A DNA stretch of 18,977 nt, from NCBI GenBank assembly GCA_029570205.1, contig JAKQSI010000092.1, positions 1 to 18,977 on the forward strand. The letters run 5' to 3'. Position 1 is the stretch's first letter. Every line of letters begins with the position of its first letter. The DNA comes from Candidatus Omnitrophota bacterium (GTDB taxonomy: Bacteria; Hinthialibacterota; Hinthialibacteria; Hinthialibacterales; JAKPRU01). The notes beneath the pieces were generated by a model. It searched no databases. It worked only from the letters and a program-made list of their open reading frames with translations, and was not told where the DNA came from. Shown in pieces: positions 2,248 to 14,715 of the stretch. A program made the translations under genes and the position numbers.

Positions 2248-3582
2248 ATGCGGACTCGTCTCAGATCGAATTGGGTTTCGTATTTCATTGCTGTCGGCCT
2301 GCTGCCGGTGTTCTGGTATTTCCGTGCGTTCTATGCGGAGGGGGATGGGGACCAGATCGCGCGGTTTATCGAAGCCGGGATTTGGTTCATCAAAACCGAG
2401 GTACTGTCCCAGGCGATACTTCAATTTGCTTACAAAATCTGTTCTCTCTGGAACTGGGATGGGATGCTGACCTTAAACCTGGTCTCCTCCATTGCCGGGG
2501 TCGTAATGGTCTTTTTCCTCATTCGAGCCGGAGAGGAAATGGGGGAGAATCGGTACACCTTTTTGGTAACGCTCTCGTCCGGATTCATAGTCCTCGCCTG
2601 TGGCCATACGGAGTATTATCCGCAACTTCTGGCGGGGATGGCGGCCTGGAATTGGGCATCCATGCGATACCTGCGCGGGTACGGATCGTCATTGCTTTCG
2701 TCGCTGCTGTTTTCGCTCTGTGTGTGGTTTCACCAGGAAGCGATTTTTGCCTTTCCCGCTCATTGTTTTCTGCTCATACTCCGAAAAGAAAAGAATCATT
2801 GGATTCCCTGGGCTTTCGGGCTTCTTCCGCTCGTGTTGCTTGCGATCATTCGGCTGGTTCCGCAGATTTCGCCGCTTCGCCTGGAAGGGATGTCGCACGG
2901 GTGGAATGTTGTTCCGCTATGGTCCACAGAGGGGACGGAGAAGTTGTACTCCATGTTCGAGTGGGCGCATGTGCGGGATATTCTGTATGCGTGGGGGCGA
3001 CGCTCCATTGTGGCCTGGCCGATGATTGTGGCCAGCATTGTCATGCAGCGTTTCTCGGCCGTTCCCGGACAGGTGAATGAAACCGGGCAGATTCGATGGT
3101 TCCTGGCGGTCCAGTGTGCGGGGTTCTGGTTGTTGTGCATTTTGTGGCATCCCAACCTGGGAATTGAGGCGGATTGGGATTTGTTCGCAGTGGAGGCGAT
3201 TCCTTCCACGCTTCTTGCGCTGACATTCATTCCCGTCATTGTTTCCAAACGAGTGACCTATTATTGCCTGATTATTCTGTTGTCATTCTCCGCACTGGAT
3301 ACATGGACCCGGATTTACGATCGGGCGCAGCCGGGAGCACGCGATCGGGGAAGTGTTGTGATTGAAGTGGGAGGCTCCGAAGACTTGTTGATCGTTCTGG
3401 ATGGGCATCAGAAAGGGAAGGTGATTCCCTCCGTTCCGGAGGGTCGGCACTACCTGAAAATGATCGACCCGATTGAGCGATGGTCTGTGGACTACGTGCT
3501 TGTGGTGTCCGGCGGGCGTGAGACGAGGGTTATTGTGTCCAAATCACGCGATCTTCAGTACAAACCTGTACCGCATAGATGA
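2248..3582 (+). CDS. Polytopic membrane protein, possibly GT-C-like, with PEGA-like tail
   Basis: This 444-residue protein has roughly nine hydrophobic segments, near residues 10-27, 77-93, 104-118, 147-163, 166-178, 187-205, 254-268, 283-300 and 320-350. After the first segment comes an acidic loop, EGDGDQ (31-36). A motif GHTEYYP (119-125) sits at the end of a membrane segment, and HPNLGIEADWDLFA (301-314) follows a later one. An acidic loop after the first helix is typical of GT-C glycosyltransferases that use polyprenyl-linked sugars, so that role is possible, but no family signature was confirmed. The last 75 residues are soluble and contain GHQKGKVIPSVPEGRH (386-401), resembling a PEGA-type beta domain. 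The start has only a modest AGGA site at 2235-2238. It is the first gene after a divergent gap; the next gene, dnaK, is 235 bases downstream beyond repeats. Confidence 0.8.
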   Translation: MRTRLRSNWVSYFIAVGLLPVFWYFRAFYAEGDGDQIARFIEAGIWFIKTEVLSQAILQFAYKICSLWNWDGMLTLNLVSSIAGVVMVFFLIRAGEEMGENRYTFLVTLSSGFIVLACGHTEYYPQLLAGMAAWNWASMRYLRGYGSSLLSSLLFSLCVWFHQEAIFAFPAHCFLLILRKEKNHWIPWAFGLLPLVLLAIIRLVPQISPLRLEGMSHGWNVVPLWSTEGTEKLYSMFEWAHVRDILYAWGRRSIVAWPMIVASIVMQRFSAVPGQVNETGQIRWFLAVQCAGFWLLCILWHPNLGIEADWDLFAVEAIPSTLLALTFIPVIVSKRVTYYCLIILLSFSALDTWTRIYDRAQPGARDRGSVVIEVGGSEDLLIVLDGHQKGKVIPSVPEGRHYLKMIDPIERWSVDYVLVVSGGRETRVIVSKSRDLQYKPVPHR

Positions 3583-3583
3583 C

Positions 3584-3698
3584 GACAGGCACGGAGGGAA
3601 TGACAGGCACGGAGGCCTGTCCTACCGGGATGACCGGGTGACAGGCACGGAGGCCTGTCCTACCATTTTTCCAGTAGGCCAGGCGTCTCTGCCTGGCG
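3584..3698. repeat. Cluster of short hairpin repeats, four copies
   Basis: Two complete 25-base copies (3602-3626 and 3640-3664) have the structure GACAGGC-ACGGAG-GCCTGTC followed by CTACC. A partial copy (3584-3597) precedes them. A fourth related unit (3674-3698), in the opposite orientation, is GTAG followed by GCCAGGC-GTCTCT-GCCTGGC. All have 7-base arms around a 6-base loop. The cluster begins directly after the stop codon of the membrane protein gene. It resembles REP-like intergenic elements; there is no associated transposase in the window. Confidence 0.8.
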
Positions 3699-3752
3699 AT
3701 TAGCGTCAATCCGCAATCCACAATTCGTAATTGTTGAGGGTTTGCGTTTTTG

Positions 3753-3840
3753 TAGGAGAAGGCTTAGCATAGCGATGTGTGACTCGCCGGGAGGTAGCTC
3801 GATATCGACGGGACGCCATGTCATCGGTTCTGGGCATTGA
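3753..3840 (+). promoter_or_regulatory. dnaK leader with possible 21-codon upstream frame
   Basis: A strong Shine-Dalgarno-like TAGGAGAAGG lies at 3753-3762, but it does not fit the dnaK ATG at 3818. It is 12 bases from an ATG at 3775 that opens a 21-codon frame (MCDSPGGSS...) ending with TGA at 3838-3840, overlapping the dnaK start in another frame. It is also 16 bases from an in-frame GTG at 3779. TTGCGT (3742-3747) and TAGCAT (3765-3770), spaced 17, form a weak promoter candidate. This may be a translational-coupling leader or coincidence. Confidence 0.25.
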
Positions 3841-5542
3841 TTTAGGTACGACGAATTCGGTGGCCGCCATGGTCATCGGTGGCTGCCCTGTTGTGATTCC
3901 CAATTCGTTCGGTAAACGTATTACTCCCTCGGTGGTTTCATTTGCCCGCGATGGGGAGATTTTTGTCGGCGAACCGGCCCGCAACCGGGCCGTCATCGAC
4001 AACGCGCGAACTATTTTCTCTATCAAGCGCCGGATGGGGATGTCGCACAAGGTGTGGATTGACGGCGCATCTTACCTTCCCCAGGAAATTTCCGCGATGA
4101 TTCTGCGGAAGCTTCGACGCGATGCCGAATCGTACTTGAAACACCAAGTCACACAGGCAGTCATCACAGTCCCCGCCTATTTCAACCATGCACAACGGCA
4201 GGCCACGCGAGAAGCCGGAACCATCGCCGGACTGGATGTGATTCGTATTATCAACGAACCGACCGCCGCTGCCCTCGCGTATGGCCTTCATGAGGCAACA
4301 GAGTCCAAGACGATTTTGGTCTATGATCTGGGCGGAGGAACCTTCGACGTTTCCCTGCTGGAGATCGGTGACGGGCTTTTTGAGGTTTTGGCAACCGGCG
4401 GTAACAACCGCCTGGGGGGCGATGATTTCGACCGTGCCCTGATGGAGGATGTTCGGGTGCGGTTCAAGACCCGAACGGGGGTGGATCTATTCAACGATCC
4501 GTTTGCCTGTGCCAAGATTCGCGAGGAAGTTGAGAAGGCCAAGATCAGCCTTTCCCAACATCGGCAGGTATCCATCAGCATCCCTTTTATCTCGGCCACC
4601 GACAATGGCCCGCTGCATCTGGAAGAGGAATTCACACGGATTCAATTCGAGCAGATGATTGAGCCTCTGGTCACCTCCACGATAAGCCCGATTCAACGGG
4701 TGTTGAGAGAGGGGAAAAAGGACACGGAGGAGATCGATCAGGTCCTGTTAGTTGGTGGGTCCACACGAATTCCGCTTGTTCAGCGTGTACTCCAGGAAAC
4801 TGTCGGAATCCGCCCGGATATGGCGCCCAATCCCGATGAGCTGGTGGCCATCGGCGCGGCGCTTCAGGCATCAATTCTGGAAGGGGAGCTGAAAGGCTCC
4901 GTTCTTATGGATGTGACACCGTTCACGTTGGGGGTCGAAACGGAAGGAGGGGAATTCGCGCCGATCATTCCCCGAAACAAACCCATTCCGATAGGAAGGA
5001 GCCGGGTGTTCACGGCGCCCCCGAAAGAACAGGGAGCGGTTGAGATCCATGTGCTGCAAGGCGAATCCAATCGTGTGGATCAGAATATCTCGCTCGGGCG
5101 CTTTCACCTGGATCATATCGGGTGTTCGGGAAAGGAATCCCAAGTCCGAGTTACTTTCTTTGTCAATTCGGATGGGATTGTGCAGGTCAGCGCGGCCAAT
5201 ACCGGCACGGGCCACCAGGAAAATCGGTTGATTTCAGGATTACAGACGCTCTCGCGCTCCCAGTTGGACGAGCTGACCCAGTCCGCCCAACAACGCGAAT
5301 TGGATGCCCGGAGACGTGAGCGTGAAATGGACCGGCTGGTTCGGGAGGCACGGGAGATGATCCGCCGAGCCAGAAATCTGCTGGAAAGTCTGGTAAAAAG
5401 CGAACAAAGCGTTATGCTGGAAAGTATTGAATTGCTCAACGAAGCCCTGCTCACCGGCGATCGGGATTCTCTCAAGAACTGCATTTCCGATATGGGGTTC
5501 CTGTTAGAGCAGATGGAAGAAACGACGGAACCTGTGAGTTGA
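3818..5542 (+). CDS. dnaK: DnaK-type Hsp70 chaperone, compact form
   Basis: This is an ATP-dependent cytoplasmic chaperone of 574 residues that binds and releases exposed hydrophobic peptide segments. All nucleotide-binding signatures are present: GIDLGTTNS (6-14), AVITVPAYF (114-122), NEPTAAALAYG (146-156), YDLGGGTFDVS (169-179) and, later, LLVGGSTRIP. The linker VLMDVTPFTLGVE leads into the beta substrate-binding domain, and a charged helical lid with many RRREREM-type repeats ends the protein. It is about 60 residues shorter than E. coli DnaK (638), with the loss in the lid and tail; no EEVD-like or acidic disordered tail is present. I chose the ATG at 3818 because MSSVLGIDLGTTNS aligns with the family start, although an in-frame GTG at 3779 is possible. 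The gene lies 34 bases before a J-domain gene, which suggests a dedicated pair. No GrpE is in the window. Confidence 0.95.
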   Translation: MSSVLGIDLGTTNSVAAMVIGGCPVVIPNSFGKRITPSVVSFARDGEIFVGEPARNRAVIDNARTIFSIKRRMGMSHKVWIDGASYLPQEISAMILRKLRRDAESYLKHQVTQAVITVPAYFNHAQRQATREAGTIAGLDVIRIINEPTAAALAYGLHEATESKTILVYDLGGGTFDVSLLEIGDGLFEVLATGGNNRLGGDDFDRALMEDVRVRFKTRTGVDLFNDPFACAKIREEVEKAKISLSQHRQVSISIPFISATDNGPLHLEEEFTRIQFEQMIEPLVTSTISPIQRVLREGKKDTEEIDQVLLVGGSTRIPLVQRVLQETVGIRPDMAPNPDELVAIGAALQASILEGELKGSVLMDVTPFTLGVETEGGEFAPIIPRNKPIPIGRSRVFTAPPKEQGAVEIHVLQGESNRVDQNISLGRFHLDHIGCSGKESQVRVTFFVNSDGIVQVSAANTGTGHQENRLISGLQTLSRSQLDELTQSAQQRELDARRREREMDRLVREAREMIRRARNLLESLVKSEQSVMLESIELLNEALLTGDRDSLKNCISDMGFLLEQMEETTEPVS

Positions 5543-5576
5543 CCGCGACAAGGGGCGAGATTCCCATTTCGGGAGT

Positions 5577-6293
5577 ATGACAGTGACCGCTATCTTCGAT
5601 CCGTATCTGATTTTACAGGTTCGGCGCAATGCAACCCGTGAGGAGATCAAACGCTCCTATCGCAGGCTTGTTGTTCGATGTCATCCCGATGTGTGCAGCG
5701 AACCGGACGCCGCCGACCGATTCCGGCGTGTCGTTGCGGCTTACGAGATGATCGACGAAGAAAAGAAATCCACGGTTCGTCCGGCGCATACAGGCCGTCA
5801 TTTCCAGGCTGCCGCCGGTCCGCGTCCCGCGCCGTCCGCTCAGCAGGCTCAGCAGTCTGCTCGGAAGCGATTCAGTATGAAGCTGGGACGGAAACTGGAT
5901 CATCTCAGTATTCAGGAATTGATTGCGCGGTTTGAGGGATCATACAACCGTTATGTGAGAATTGCGGCGGCGCAAGCTCTCGGAAGACGTCGGTGCCTGG
6001 CGGCTGTCCTGGCCTTGTCGCGAAATGTGGCGTCTTGCACCGATAAAGAGGTACTCCTGGCCATTATCGGCGCGCTCGGTGAAAGCCGGATCCCACGGGC
6101 GGCATATACACTCGCGCCGCTTTTGGGGCATCGGGACCTGGATGTTGCCTCGGCGGCGGAACAGGCGATCTATGCGCTGAAAACGGAGGTCACTGTTCCC
6201 ATCCTGGAACGTCTGCTGCGTACGGAGCCTCTGATTATCCGTGCGCGGATGGTGCGTACATTGAGGCGGATTCTCCGTTTTGCAGCGGCATGA
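5577..6293 (+). CDS. J-domain protein with HEAT-repeat-like C-terminus
   Basis: This 238-residue protein probably stimulates the ATPase of the Hsp70 encoded just upstream. Residues 8-68 form a J-domain: DPYLILQVRRNATREEIKRSY, then the essential HPD at 36-38 and a third helix (RFRRVVAAYEMIDEEKK). A polar linker rich in Ala, Pro and Gln spans about 72-100. Residues 105-235 are repeated helical hairpins of HEAT type, with units starting near YVRIAAAQALG, KEVLLAIIGALG and DLDVASAAEQAIYAL. Classical DnaJ has a Gly/Phe region, zinc finger and peptide-binding domains instead; none is present. GGGAG at 5571-5575 is too close to the ATG at 5577 but sits 7 bases before an in-frame GTG at 5583, so translation may begin two codons later. 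It ends before a hairpin terminator. Confidence 0.9.
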   Translation: MTVTAIFDPYLILQVRRNATREEIKRSYRRLVVRCHPDVCSEPDAADRFRRVVAAYEMIDEEKKSTVRPAHTGRHFQAAAGPRPAPSAQQAQQSARKRFSMKLGRKLDHLSIQELIARFEGSYNRYVRIAAAQALGRRRCLAAVLALSRNVASCTDKEVLLAIIGALGESRIPRAAYTLAPLLGHRDLDVASAAEQAIYALKTEVTVPILERLLRTEPLIIRARMVRTLRRILRFAAA

Positions 6294-6338: not shown

Positions 6339-6369
6339 AATCCCTCCCCCGATCTTCGGGGGAGGGATT
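6339..6369. terminator. Strong hairpin between convergent genes
   Basis: Arms AATCCCTCCCCCGA (6339-6352) and its exact complement (6356-6369) form a 14-base-pair stem with a TCT loop. The hairpin lies between the stop of the J-domain gene at 6293 and the end of the oxidoreductase gene at 6393, the expected place for a bidirectional terminator. The T-run after it is short (ATTTCG). The same C-run/G-run design recurs in other gaps, so it is also a member of a repeat family. Confidence 0.6.
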
Positions 6370-6392: not shown

Positions 6393-7715
6393 TCACACTT
6401 GGTCCGGAATCACGTAAGGCTCGCGATACTTGCGTTTCAACAGCGCATTGGCTTCATCGTCGCCGACGATTTGTTCCTTTTCAGGATCAAAGACCAATTG
6501 CCTTTTGACCCGGTGTGCGATCATACCCAGGTGGCACAGCGCCGCGGAATAATGCCCCTGAAGGACCTCGCCGTTCTGATCCTCGCGTTTCCGGCTGCGG
6601 ACGGCCTTGATGAAGTTGGCCTTGTGGTTGCCGCCCTCGTTGCGTTTCTTGCCGGGTTCCCGCTTTTCCCCCATAAAGAACTCATATTCGTCATATCCGC
6701 GAATGACCAACATGCCTTCTGAACCGTAGAAGAGGTTCCCGACCCCTGTGCCTTCTTCCTCGTTGGTGATCCAGGGCCGGACATCAAAAACAATCTGCTT
6801 GTTTTCCTTGGGATACCGGAACGCGGAAACACTGACATTGGGGATTTCCTTGTCATCATCGGTCCAGATGTACATGCCCGCCATGGTGCAGATCTCTGTG
6901 GGGAGAGTAACACCCAGCCCCCACATGCACATGTCCATTTCATGCACGCCCTGGTTGCCCAAGTCGCCGTTACCGTAGTCCCAGAAATAGTGCCAATTGT
7001 AATGGAACCGGTTTTGTGTGAACGGGCGCAGGGGCGCCGGGCCGAGCCACATATCATAATGCACCCCGGGAGGTACAGGTTCCTCTTCCTTGTGCCCGAT
7101 CGTAGGTCGATTGCGGTAACACAGGCCACGCGCCATATAGACCTCGCCGATCTCGCCGTCCCGCATCAATTGGACGGCCTCCTGGACAGCCGGGGAGCTG
7201 CGCAATTGCACGCCGTACTGGACAATTCGATCGTATTTCCGCGAGGCCTCGACCATCTTGCGTCCTTCCCAAACATTGTGGGAAGCCGGTTTCTCGACAT
7301 ACACGTCTTTTCCGGCCTGGCAGGCCCAGATCGTTCCCAGAGCGTGCCAATGATTGGGAGTTGCGAACGACACGGCGTCAATCGAGGAATCCTCGAACAC
7401 TTTCCGCATATCCCATTCGGTTTTCGGCTTCCGTTTGTAAGTCTCCTCGAAGGATTTCGCCCGCTCCATGAGGATGTTTTCATCGATATCGCACAGCGTG
7501 ACAACTTCCACGTCGTCCAGCTCTTCAAATCCCTTAATATGTCCTTTTCCCTGGCCCCGGATTCCGATGCAGGCCATACGAATCCGTTCGTTCGCTCCTT
7601 TTGGACGTGCGGCCGGATTGACCGCCTGCGCCATCGACTGATACCCACCCAGCGCCACCATTCCCGTCACTACACGGGCGCTGCTTTTCAAGAAATCGCG
7701 TCTCTTTGTTTCCAT
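6393..7715 (-). CDS. Tat-exported Gfo/Idh/MocA family oxidoreductase
   Basis: This is a 440-residue NAD(P)-dependent sugar or inositol dehydrogenase-type enzyme. The N-terminus carries a twin-arginine signal (KRRDFLKSSARVVTGMVALGG, with RRDFLK at 5-10), so the folded protein with its cofactor is probably exported to the periplasm. A Rossmann fold follows, with CIGIRGQGKGH (49-59) and LCDID (75-79). The family EKP motif is at 141-143. The C-terminal domain includes GNQGVHEMDMCMWGL (253-267), where H258 and D261 fit the usual catalytic His/Asp region. The length suits the exported subgroup common in planctomycete-like bacteria, which is often encoded near DUF1080 and glycoside hydrolase genes, as here. 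The start at 7715 has GAGAGG about 10 bases upstream. The substrate cannot be told from sequence. Confidence 0.93.
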   Translation of the reverse strand: METKRRDFLKSSARVVTGMVALGGYQSMAQAVNPAARPKGANERIRMACIGIRGQGKGHIKGFEELDDVEVVTLCDIDENILMERAKSFEETYKRKPKTEWDMRKVFEDSSIDAVSFATPNHWHALGTIWACQAGKDVYVEKPASHNVWEGRKMVEASRKYDRIVQYGVQLRSSPAVQEAVQLMRDGEIGEVYMARGLCYRNRPTIGHKEEEPVPPGVHYDMWLGPAPLRPFTQNRFHYNWHYFWDYGNGDLGNQGVHEMDMCMWGLGVTLPTEICTMAGMYIWTDDDKEIPNVSVSAFRYPKENKQIVFDVRPWITNEEEGTGVGNLFYGSEGMLVIRGYDEYEFFMGEKREPGKKRNEGGNHKANFIKAVRSRKREDQNGEVLQGHYSAALCHLGMIAHRVKRQLVFDPEKEQIVGDDEANALLKRKYREPYVIPDQV

Positions 7716-7845
7716 CTGTCACGATCCTCTCTTTTTGAACAAATTGACCGTTTCCGAGCCGTTCTCTGGGACGGTCCCGGACCATTCATCCTATCCCTCT
7801 CCCGCCGCGCTTGATAGGGAAACGGAAGTGACATACTGTTCTTAT

Positions 7846-7913
7846 GGGAGGGCGAGGCTCCTGCCGAGCCGCAGGCAATAAGAATATCGGCTCGGCAGGA
7901 GCCTCGCCCTCCC
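7846..7913. repeat. Perfect 25-base inverted repeat
   Basis: The arms 7846-7870 and 7889-7913 are exact reverse complements of 25 bases separated by an 18-base spacer. The core reads GGCGAGGCTCCTGCCGAGCC. On the + strand the element stays open and translates to GRGSCRA...GSAGASPS, a peptide string I associate with dispersed repeats in planctomycete-like genomes (from memory, unchecked). It would form a very stable cruciform or RNA stem. It lies just upstream of the gene starting at 7946 and artificially extends that reading frame. Confidence 0.85.
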
Positions 7914-7945
7914 GGAAATCCGTGATCCAAAGGGGGTATTCAGCG

Positions 7946-9043: not shown

Positions 9044-10141
9044 TCACAGAAGGTCCAGGAATTTTAAATCGGCGGCGGGAAGAGGGTAATCTTTCAACCG
9101 GGAGCGCAAAATCCATTTGATTTCCTGGTGGTACTCCGGCCTGGGTATCCCGGATCGATGTCGGCATTCATACACGTGCAGGGTGATTCGAAAATGGGAG
9201 TACGTGTGCTCCACCATGACCAGGTACGGGCCGACCTCGATTTCAATCCCCATCTCCTCTCGCAGTTCACGGATCAATGCCTGCTCGTGGTTCTCTCCGG
9301 GTTCCACCTTGCCACCGGGGAACTCCCACAATCCACCCAGCATTCCGCCGGAAGGACGTTTGCCGAGCAAATACCGTCCATTCTTGCGAATTACCGCCGC
9401 AACGACCTCATAGTGCGGGATCTTTTTTCTCTGTGTACGAGTCGGCAACTCTTCAACGTTGCCCTGCTGCAAAGCATCGCAGACCTGTCGGACCGGGCAT
9501 TGTGGACAAATCTGTTTTTTGGGCAAACAGATCCGTGCGCCGAGTTCCATCATGGCCTGGTTGAAATCGCCGGGATGTTTCGGCGGAACGAGATCCCCGG
9601 CAATTTCCCACAACCGCTTTCGGATTTGCGCGTCTTCCAGGGCATCGCGAATGGCGAACAGGCGAGCCAGAACCCGTTTGACATTGCCATCCAACACCGG
9701 CGCACGAATCCCCAGCGCAATGCTCGCAATTGCCCCCGCTGTGTATGGCCCAACACCCGGCATTTGTGACCATTCCTCCGCCGTCTGTGGGAAGGCGCCG
9801 TTTCTCTCGCTGATAATGATTTTCGCGGCACGTTGAAGATTCCGCGCGCGGGTGTAATATCCCAGCCCCTGCCAGACCCTCAATAATTCATCCTCCCCTG
9901 CTGACGCAAGATGTTTCACCGTGGGGAACCGTCGCATAAATCGCTCGAAATAGGGAATCACTGTTTCCGCGCGGGTTTGTTGCAGCATGATTTCCGAAAC
10001 CCAGATCGCATAGATGTCGTGTGACCGACGCCATGGAAGATCGCGGGCGTGTTTTCGGAACCAGTTCAGCAAGGCTCTGCGGATGCGGGGACGTTTTGCG
10101 GTGAGGGCGTTATTGGTTAAGTAGGATTTTTCTGGTGGCAT
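9044..10141 (-). CDS. mutY: A/G-specific adenine glycosylase MutY with intact Nudix box
   Basis: MutY removes adenine mispaired with 8-oxoguanine in base-excision repair. In this 365-residue protein the catalytic Glu is E50 (SEIMLQQT), the helix-hairpin-helix is MPGVGPYTAG (127-136), and the catalytic Asp is D151 in LDGNVKRVLARL. The iron-sulfur cysteines are C205, C212, C215 and C221 (CX6CX2CX5C). All sit at a constant 13-residue offset from E. coli MutY. The C-terminal MutT-like domain carries HTYSH (312-316), matching the FSH loop that reads 8-oxoguanine. It also has a full Nudix consensus: G277, E283, R291, E292, E295, E296 and G298. In well-studied MutY proteins this box is degenerate. 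The ATG at 10141 has CAGGAT 8 bases upstream. An open frame to 10366 only translates repeats. The role is cytoplasmic and the gene is probably transcribed alone. Confidence 0.96.
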   Translation of the reverse strand: MPPEKSYLTNNALTAKRPRIRRALLNWFRKHARDLPWRRSHDIYAIWVSEIMLQQTRAETVIPYFERFMRRFPTVKHLASAGEDELLRVWQGLGYYTRARNLQRAAKIIISERNGAFPQTAEEWSQMPGVGPYTAGAIASIALGIRAPVLDGNVKRVLARLFAIRDALEDAQIRKRLWEIAGDLVPPKHPGDFNQAMMELGARICLPKKQICPQCPVRQVCDALQQGNVEELPTRTQRKKIPHYEVVAAVIRKNGRYLLGKRPSGGMLGGLWEFPGGKVEPGENHEQALIRELREEMGIEIEVGPYLVMVEHTYSHFRITLHVYECRHRSGIPRPEYHQEIKWILRSRLKDYPLPAADLKFLDLL

Positions 10142-10470
10142 GTTGGTATCCTGAAGACCCTCACCCCGACCCTTCCCGGAGGGAGAGGGAAACGATGAAT
10201 TCTCTCCCGGAGGCGATGTTATTGAGTCACGGGCATTCGGGAAGGGCCGGTTGTTGAGCTTGTCGAAACGCCGGCCCTCCGATCCTTCGGCAAGATCAGA
10301 AACCGGGACTGAGATCGCCACGTCGCCGCCCGGAGTCTGCGAAGGGCGGCGACGTGGCGATCTCATGGCTTGCGTTCCGCGGCGGCGAGATTGCCACGCT
10401 TCGCTCGCAATGACAGACCGCCGCCTCCCGCAACGACGGTTGCAGGCGAGCCTTCTCAGGAGAAAACACG
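10142..10470. repeat. Mosaic of dispersed intergenic repeats between divergent genes
   Basis: This 329-base divergent gap contains no gene. From left to right it holds a C-rich/G-rich block (CCTTCCC ... GGGAGAGG, 10171-10188), sequence translating as KLNNRPFPN-type repeat (about 10225-10265), and a perfect 21-base inverted repeat (arms 10311-10331 and 10344-10364, 12-base loop). A further inverted pair GCGGCGG / CCGCCGC (10379-10385 and 10418-10424) encloses a GAGATTGCCACG...CGCAATGAC motif. All of these look like known types of dispersed intergenic repeats. AGGAG at 10458-10462 is the ribosome site of the following gene. Confidence 0.75.
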
Positions 10471-14391: not shown

Positions 14392-14715
14392 ATGATCGAA
14401 TGCACCACGACGAAAGAATCGGGTCTTGCCAGGTTGAATATCAAGGGGCGCATTGACACGAACACGGCTCCGCAAGTGCAGAAAGAGTTGGACGATCTGA
14501 TTGCGGCAGGGGAGCAGAAGATCGTGTTGAACCTGGAAGAAGTGCATTATGTCAGCAGCGCCGCACTGAGGGTGTTTCTGGTCACCCAGAAGCAGTTGAA
14601 ACGATCCGGGGGTGAGGTGATTCTGTGCGGGGCGGCTCCATCGGTGATGGAGGTTTTCAAATTGAGCGGATTCGACCAGATTTTCCGGGTGGTTAAGGGC
14701 GAGGAGGGGATGTAG
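14392..14715 (+). CDS. STAS-domain anti-sigma-factor antagonist (SpoIIAA-like)
   Basis: This 107-residue cytoplasmic protein is a single STAS domain. Such proteins bind or release an anti-sigma kinase depending on phosphorylation of a Ser. The pattern is typical: ARLNIKGRIDTNTAPQVQKEL (13-33), then IVLNLEEVHYVSSAALRVFL (44-63), and a last helix VMEVFKLSGFDQIFRVV. S56 in VSSAAL aligns with the phosphorylated serine of SpoIIAA. GGAG lies 8 bases before the ATG at 14392. A frame open back to 14143 runs inside the GH9 gene and is not coding. No partner kinase (SpoIIAB/RsbW-like) or phosphatase is in the window, so the pathway is unknown. It may have its own promoter at 14313-14340. Confidence 0.93.
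   Translation: MIECTTTKESGLARLNIKGRIDTNTAPQVQKELDDLIAAGEQKIVLNLEEVHYVSSAALRVFLVTQKQLKRSGGEVILCGAAPSVMEVFKLSGFDQIFRVVKGEEGM

Follow-up and report, generated by a model that had tools for sequence, protein, structure and literature searches.

A two-gene Hsp70/J-HEAT pair as a probable dedicated chaperone machine beside DnaK-DnaJ-GrpE in a Hinthialibacterota genome

The window considered here is an entire contig (C58; JAKQSI010000092.1; 18,977 bases) of a Candidatus Omnitrophota bacterium genome assigned to Hinthialibacterota (GCA_029570205.1; 4.39 Mb in 131 contigs, estimated 93% complete), and it carries on its forward strand an Hsp70 gene followed, 34 bases after its stop codon, by a gene encoding a J-domain protein with a tail of HEAT repeats, hereafter J-HEAT. 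Judged from its sequence, this pair is probably a dedicated Hsp70/J-domain protein (JDP) machine acting beside the DnaK-DnaJ-GrpE system of the same cell, in which the HEAT tail would address J-HEAT to its target. That it is a dedicated machine as such, as had been proposed in a preliminary description of the locus, is well supported by a separate canonical system in the genome, by the Hsp70's own lineage and by the recurrent adjacency of the two genes; for the further proposal that the HEAT part selects the clients, we infer as much from the architecture. Two outcomes had been set beforehand as tests against the idea, namely a single dnaK in the genome grouping with the housekeeping clade, or a J-HEAT gene found away from Hsp70 genes in relatives, and neither was observed, since another dnaK is present, the paired Hsp70 belongs to a separate lineage, and J-HEAT lies beside Hsp70 in relatives.

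The recurrence of the pair was followed with J-HEAT profiles, run on two largely overlapping sets of 386 genomes from many families and then on the phyla that gave hits (the large scans scored only seven candidates for each genome, so that the pair counts are lower bounds). An Hsp70 gene with an adjacent J-HEAT gene downstream on the same strand occurs in at least 11 genomes of five phylum-level lineages, and outside the genus of the window the two genes overlap slightly or are at most about 10 bases apart. Besides the source genome and its congeners G001 and G002, the pair (Hsp70/J-HEAT lengths in amino acids) is found in G368 (586/238), in five genomes of a single phylum (G270, G397, G133, G399 and G400; 571–576/222–227), a phylum in which J-HEAT is present in six of seven genomes, in G092 (626/263) and in G248 (485/307). 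No GrpE was detectable in the flanks read around the pairs of these 11 genomes. Conservation of gene order thus extends to the congeners and four further phyla, with G011 and G076 as exceptions (discussed below). A match in G110, from the phylum of G248, turned out to be an ordinary DnaJ and was discarded, and a scan of 85,000 named genomes with Hsp70 patterns that were genus-specific returned only two congeners ('Candidatus Omnitrophota bacterium' metagenome-assembled genomes) and three remote Hsp70-like proteins. Such a sporadic spread fits transfer between phyla, and it also fits an old ancestry with losses.

The paired Hsp70s are set apart from housekeeping DnaK by both phylogeny and diagnostic residues. 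In a tree with nine paired Hsp70s, the canonical clade (33 rows) excludes every paired Hsp70 at 98/97, the Hsp70 of the window included; in another tree, of 56 rows, the Hsp70s of its genus join the paired Hsp70 of G368 at 97/92, while the canonical DnaK of G368 itself sits inside the canonical clade. When long-branch rows are left out, the paired lineage splits off at 99/94. At DnaK position 404, within the substrate arch, eight of nine paired Hsp70s have Glu or Asp and the ninth Lys, an acidic residue being found in none of 38 canonical rows; at position 429, also in the arch, all nine have Pro, Ile or Val, as against Ala in 36/38 canonical rows; and position 56 is Asn in 8/9, as against Arg in each of the 33 canonical rows that have a residue at this position. 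In the window, these positions correspond to Glu at codon 376 (4943–4945, + strand; Met404 in DnaK), Pro at codon 401 (5018–5020, +; Ala429), and Asn at codon 56 (3983–3985, +; Arg56, the partner of E264 in a salt bridge of the nucleotide cleft), and the protein therefore displays all the marks of the lineage (an adjacent J-HEAT, loss of R56, a charged 404, a non-Ala 429 and a separate phylogenetic position). Ala at 429 is strongly conserved among prokaryotic DnaKs and position 404 is M or L, the replacement of either modulating substrate specificity (PMC8215388).

The genome harbors three Hsp70 systems: the canonical one, a J-TPR/GrpE2/Hsp70 system, and the Hsp70/J-HEAT pair. A second canonical set, suggested as a check in the preliminary description, does exist, with grpE-dnaK on C1 (DnaK of 652 amino acids) and dnaJ on C119 (a 409-amino-acid frame), so that the Hsp70 of the pair is not the sole dnaK. 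The J-TPR/GrpE2/Hsp70 operon lies on C99 (17287–21082; L043:5288–9083) and encodes proteins of 448, 173 and 584 amino acids, respectively; it occurs in every class member whose second-Hsp70 region was read (G001, G003, G005, G008 and G010–G013) and, beyond the class, in the genome G025, whereas within the class the pair was found in one genus only (G001, G002 and the source genome). Both systems combine a short extra Hsp70 with a J protein of its own bearing an alpha-helical repeat tail, but the J-TPR operon includes its own GrpE, follows a J-GrpE-Hsp70 order, uses TPR instead of HEAT repeats, and its Hsp70s form a separate clade (100/100) with Leu at position 403 and Thr at 429 in 10/10. Further Hsp70 operons of unusual make-up noted in the same survey are a DnaJ, a 1331-amino-acid protein with TPR-like similarity, a GrpE and a 581-amino-acid Hsp70 in G029:C48 (L087:6310–14130), and a 127-amino-acid J protein, a 570-amino-acid GrpE-containing protein and a 590-amino-acid Hsp70 in G047:C177 (L104:5809–9701).

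At the locus itself, the Hsp70 gene (3818–5542, +) starts with ATG and encodes 574 amino acids (Pfam HSP70, 588 bits at residues 4–556); an in-frame GTG upstream, at 3779, is absent from the congener G001. The J-HEAT gene (5577–6293, +) encodes 238 amino acids with Pfam DnaJ and HEAT_2 matches, and the two-gene architecture of the preliminary description is thus borne out by open reading frames and domain matches alike. The claim that the pair comes without GrpE holds for the locus, where no grpE adjoining the pair was found, and fails for the genome, which has two grpE genes elsewhere, and for the Hsp70 itself, whose GrpE loop is undeleted. A putative promoter, TTGCGT-N17-TAGCAT (3742–3770, +), was recognised as a sequence pattern and was not listed by a stricter sigma-70 consensus scan; in the form TTGCGT-N17-TARCAT it precedes Hsp70 in 3/3 species of the genus and is absent from all other loci among 255 scanned. 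Just 3' of J-HEAT, a strong hairpin (6339–6369, +; -27.7 kcal/mol, z -4.3) followed by a weak T tract was not listed by an intrinsic-terminator scan, and is the probable end of the transcription unit, the gene beyond it being convergent to the pair. With the conserved promoter-like motif on one side and the hairpin before a convergent gene on the other, the pair is probably a two-gene transcription unit. The order, both reading frames and the 34-base gap are intact in G001 and G002, which represent two other species (96–97% identity for one and 89–91% for the other); together with the order kept in four other phyla, this indicates that the pair is not a chance arrangement. Low ratios of non-synonymous to synonymous substitution rates (dN/dS) against G001 (0.077 for Hsp70 and 0.104 for J-HEAT, with dS about 0.6) indicate that both proteins are maintained by purifying selection.

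Aligned to E. coli DnaK, HscA and HscC, the Hsp70 of the pair consists of a nucleotide-binding domain (NBD), a DnaK-type linker, the beta part of the substrate-binding domain (SBD-beta) and a full helical lid, without a disordered tail, and its model matches DnaK structures in Foldseek. It had been described as compact, with a shortened lid. The first part stands, because residues ~76–101 of NBD lobe I and the acidic tail of ~35 residues of DnaK are missing; the second does not, the lid aligning along the entire DnaK lid except for a gap of ~4 residues where helix B passes into helix C, with modelled helices at 480–522, 527–546 and 549–569 (mean predicted local distance difference test score, pLDDT, 72.9). 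The loop that binds GrpE (around residues 283–297) is undeleted and keeps P293 and H295, and the R55-E267 salt bridge is retained, R56 alone being lost. In HscA, the absence of both salt bridges (K55-E267 and R56-E264) explains fast ADP release (PMC8215388). With one clasp lost and the loop kept, a moderately faster intrinsic nucleotide exchange would be expected from the paired Hsp70, on which GrpE could still act.

J-HEAT opens with a J domain (5598–5768, +; residues 8–64; Pfam DnaJ, 59.6 bits) whose HPD motif, at residues 36–38, is invariant across nine J-HEATs. An Ala/Pro/Gln-rich linker leads to the HEAT-repeat tail (5898–6275, +; about residues 108–233; HEAT_2, 62.8 bits at residues 112–198), and in most J-HEATs the repeats are preceded by the motif E-L-x-x-R-[FLM]-x-x-[ST]-x-N-x-[YF]-V. 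The model, built from three near-identical sequences and of low confidence (pLDDT 45), has helices up to residue 237. As the preliminary description had it, motif and Pfam checks found no Gly/Phe region, no CxxCxGxG zinc-finger motif and no match to the peptide-binding DnaJ C-terminal domain in the protein. With an HPD-bearing J domain and none of the Gly/Phe, zinc-finger or C-terminal features of classes A and B, J-HEAT is by architecture a class C J-domain protein, for which stimulation of the Hsp70 ATPase is predicted. A profile built only from the tails of other phyla scores 53.7 bits (E 1e-14, single domain) on the tail of the window, as against 38 and 24 bits, single-domain, for the two unrelated HEAT proteins that score best in the genome sample; in summed score, one of these two, which has several repeats, slightly exceeds the window's tail. 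J-HEATs thus look like one family rather than a repeated invention, with a generic HEAT-repeat signal always present in such scores. A tblastn search of plasmids with J-HEAT gave no match, and a reading of the pair as a defence system was dropped after PADLOC returned no meaningful match.

How could such a pair operate? The HEAT solenoid of J-HEAT may dock onto particular partner proteins or a cell structure, where the J domain, through its HPD motif, would recruit the co-encoded Hsp70, its presumed physical partner, and trigger ATP hydrolysis locally. The Hsp70 would then hold extended segments in a modified groove, with an acidic residue and Pro, Ile or Val in the arch, in a local cycle of binding and release resembling that of HscA with HscB. 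As one of the two DnaK clasps on ADP is gone, the cycle may depend less on GrpE, and the GrpE of the cell may still serve it; both an altered client choice and a reduced GrpE dependence are suggested by the residues concerned.

Several observations weigh against a dedicated machine of this kind. In the tree, the branch with all nine paired Hsp70s on one side is weak (69/40) when the long-branch sequence of G248 is included. The paired Hsp70s retain the 55-267 bridge and the GrpE loop, making independence from GrpE doubtful. The pair might instead be a generalist duplicate, that is, a redundant DnaK paralog and a simplified DnaJ acting on the general proteome, with GrpE supplied in trans and no dedicated target. 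Such a view is favored by the retention of the loop, the K/R55-E267 bridge, V436 and the lid, by the two GrpEs of the genome, and by the dnaK duplicates of Myxococcus, which have split but broad interactomes (PMC11019930). The duplicate would nevertheless not be recent, as the paired Hsp70s make up a separate lineage in five phyla; moreover, all pairs carry changes at arch positions that otherwise hardly vary in DnaK, and J-HEAT is devoid of a substrate-binding C-terminal domain. A generalist duplicate is accordingly regarded as unlikely.

Among the same adverse observations are two J-HEATs that stand alone: in G011, from the class of the window, a J-HEAT of 242 amino acids (G011:C1; L042:9381–10109) has genes resembling a GAF-sensor kinase and a xylulokinase for neighbors and no Hsp70 gene closer than about 7 kb, and the more remote J-HEAT of G076 likewise has none within that distance. 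These cases, and the wide interchangeability of J domains (PMC8215388), could mean that J-HEAT is an all-purpose recruiter of canonical DnaK, the neighboring Hsp70 being incidental. Yet in each of the 11 genomes whose adjacent sequence could be read, this neighbor is an Hsp70 of the separate lineage and never a canonical dnaK, which leaves an all-purpose recruiter very improbable, and the dedicated pair remains the preferred reading.

Finally, no neighbor common to all pairs points at one client. Two lineages other than that of the window nevertheless provide the best lead, which is to flagellar or chemosensory assemblies. In G092:C131 (L156:1915–11280), the pair is embedded in a flagellar rod/ring operon that runs, on a single strand, FapA, Hsp70, J-HEAT, FlgF, FlgG, FlgA, FlgH, FlgI and an FlgJ-like gene, and in G248:C44 the order is CheA, STAS, CheW, Hsp70, J-HEAT, a sigma-54 activator, a TPR/AMIN protein and a sigma-54 response regulator. 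The Hsp70 of G248 (L157:5448–6905; 485 amino acids), which ends 6 bases before J-HEAT, stops after SBD-beta and thus has no lid. One could extend these contexts to a service of the flagellum or chemosensory array in every host, with J-HEAT docked to proteins of the rod/ring, of export or of the array while its Hsp70 keeps subunits competent for assembly; a weak FliK-like neighbor in G368 (E 5e-4) and the influence of the Hsp70-like StkA and SglK on motility and exopolysaccharide in Myxococcus (PMC4319316) would agree with it. However, the pair has no flagellar or chemotaxis neighbors in the genus of the window or in the G270/G397 group, and Flg and Che queries found no true match in the 862 kb (20%) of the source genome searched, so that a service extending to all hosts appears distinctly unlikely. 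In the genus of the window, the gene directly upstream of the pair in 3/3 species encodes a membrane protein without a Pfam match (2248–3582), and groEL is located further upstream in G001.

The pair can also be compared with Hsp70 systems already known. A review of bacterial Hsp70 machines recognizes three types, DnaK, HscA and HscC (PMC8215388), and the Hsp70 of the window should not be filed under any of them, since one defining feature tested for each was not found in it. For DnaK, this feature is the M/L404 and A429 arch, replaced by E and P; the protein also falls below the NCBIfam cut-offs (636.9 against 648 for NF001413, and 623.5 against 822.6 for TIGR02350) and outside the canonical clade; it has the GrpE loop of DnaK. 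The paired Hsp70s of G368 and G397 do clear the looser cut-off of 648. The Myxococcus duplicates MxDnaK1 and MxDnaK2 resemble the Hsp70 of the window as an extra DnaK-like Hsp70 beside a housekeeping one, with a DnaK-type domain plan, but are full DnaKs by family models. HscA/HscB is likewise a pair of adjacent genes for an extra Hsp70, with a reduced nucleotide clasp and a changed substrate arch, and for a J protein other than DnaJ whose helical tail binds the target, the pair working beside DnaK. HscA, however, has lost the GrpE loop together with the two salt bridges, whereas the Hsp70 of the window keeps the GrpE signature (290–295) and one bridge, and it scores 477.8 with the HscA model (cut-off 708.6); the HscB tail is not a HEAT array, and there are no isc genes near the pair or elsewhere in the window. 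HscC of E. coli, with DjlB and DjlC, offers a short extra Hsp70 (550–580 amino acids) without residues 76–101 and dedicated class C J proteins encoded nearby, but it shares only 34% identity with the Hsp70 of the window and lacks the GrpE signature, and neither its further NBD deletions nor its insertion in L1,2 is found in the latter; djlC and hscC are moreover convergent, unlike the Hsp70-then-J order of the pair. The 76–101 deletion, which the Hsp70 of the window has in common with HscC, is frequent outside Proteobacteria (PMC8215388), and was also found in the canonical DnaK of G059. StkA and SglK of Myxococcus xanthus are comparable as specialized non-housekeeping Hsp70-like proteins tied to motility and surface functions, but stkA is followed by the SCP2-like stkB and by stkC, with no J-HEAT gene (PMC4319316).

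Dedicated Hsp70/JDP pairs are thus already known, and it is the architecture and lineage of this one that are new within the literature searched. No description of the pair was met in that open literature, which did not include the likely inventory of J-domain protein architectures in prokaryotes (Barriot et al. 2020), and an earlier mention of J-HEAT is possible. A bolder proposition, that the pair is an unrecognized type of Hsp70 machine in addition to DnaK, HscA/HscB and HscC, present in at least five phyla, characterized by a charged arch and a HEAT-tailed J protein, serving large assemblies of which the basal body of the flagellum and the chemosensory complex are examples, and with a lidless Hsp70 in one lineage, is put forward only tentatively, as a possibility on the doubtful side. 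If the preferred reading is correct, the pair would represent a further recurrent two-gene Hsp70 type, distinguished by the architecture of its J protein and by groove residues specific to the lineage. It would also provide a compact natural system to understand how an Hsp70 can be directed to its target by a J protein and nothing else, as well as a test bed for Hsp70s with a charged arch, with one clasp gone or, in G248, with no lid, for which the flagellar and chemotaxis operons supply a concrete client hypothesis.

Other features of the window were recorded along the way. Short dispersed repeats of the GACAGGCACGGAGGCCTGTCCTACC type lie near 3590–3672 (3585–3672), and a dispersed repeat coding for peptides of the 'GRGSCRA...GSAGASPS' type is found near 7690–7930. 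At 14392–14712, a small STAS-domain protein of the anti-sigma antagonist type is encoded, for which the window has no evident partner gene, and the reverse strand carries, at 9047–10366, a gene for an adenine glycosylase of the MutY type that ends in a NUDIX domain; the true start of this gene probably lies downstream of the called one.

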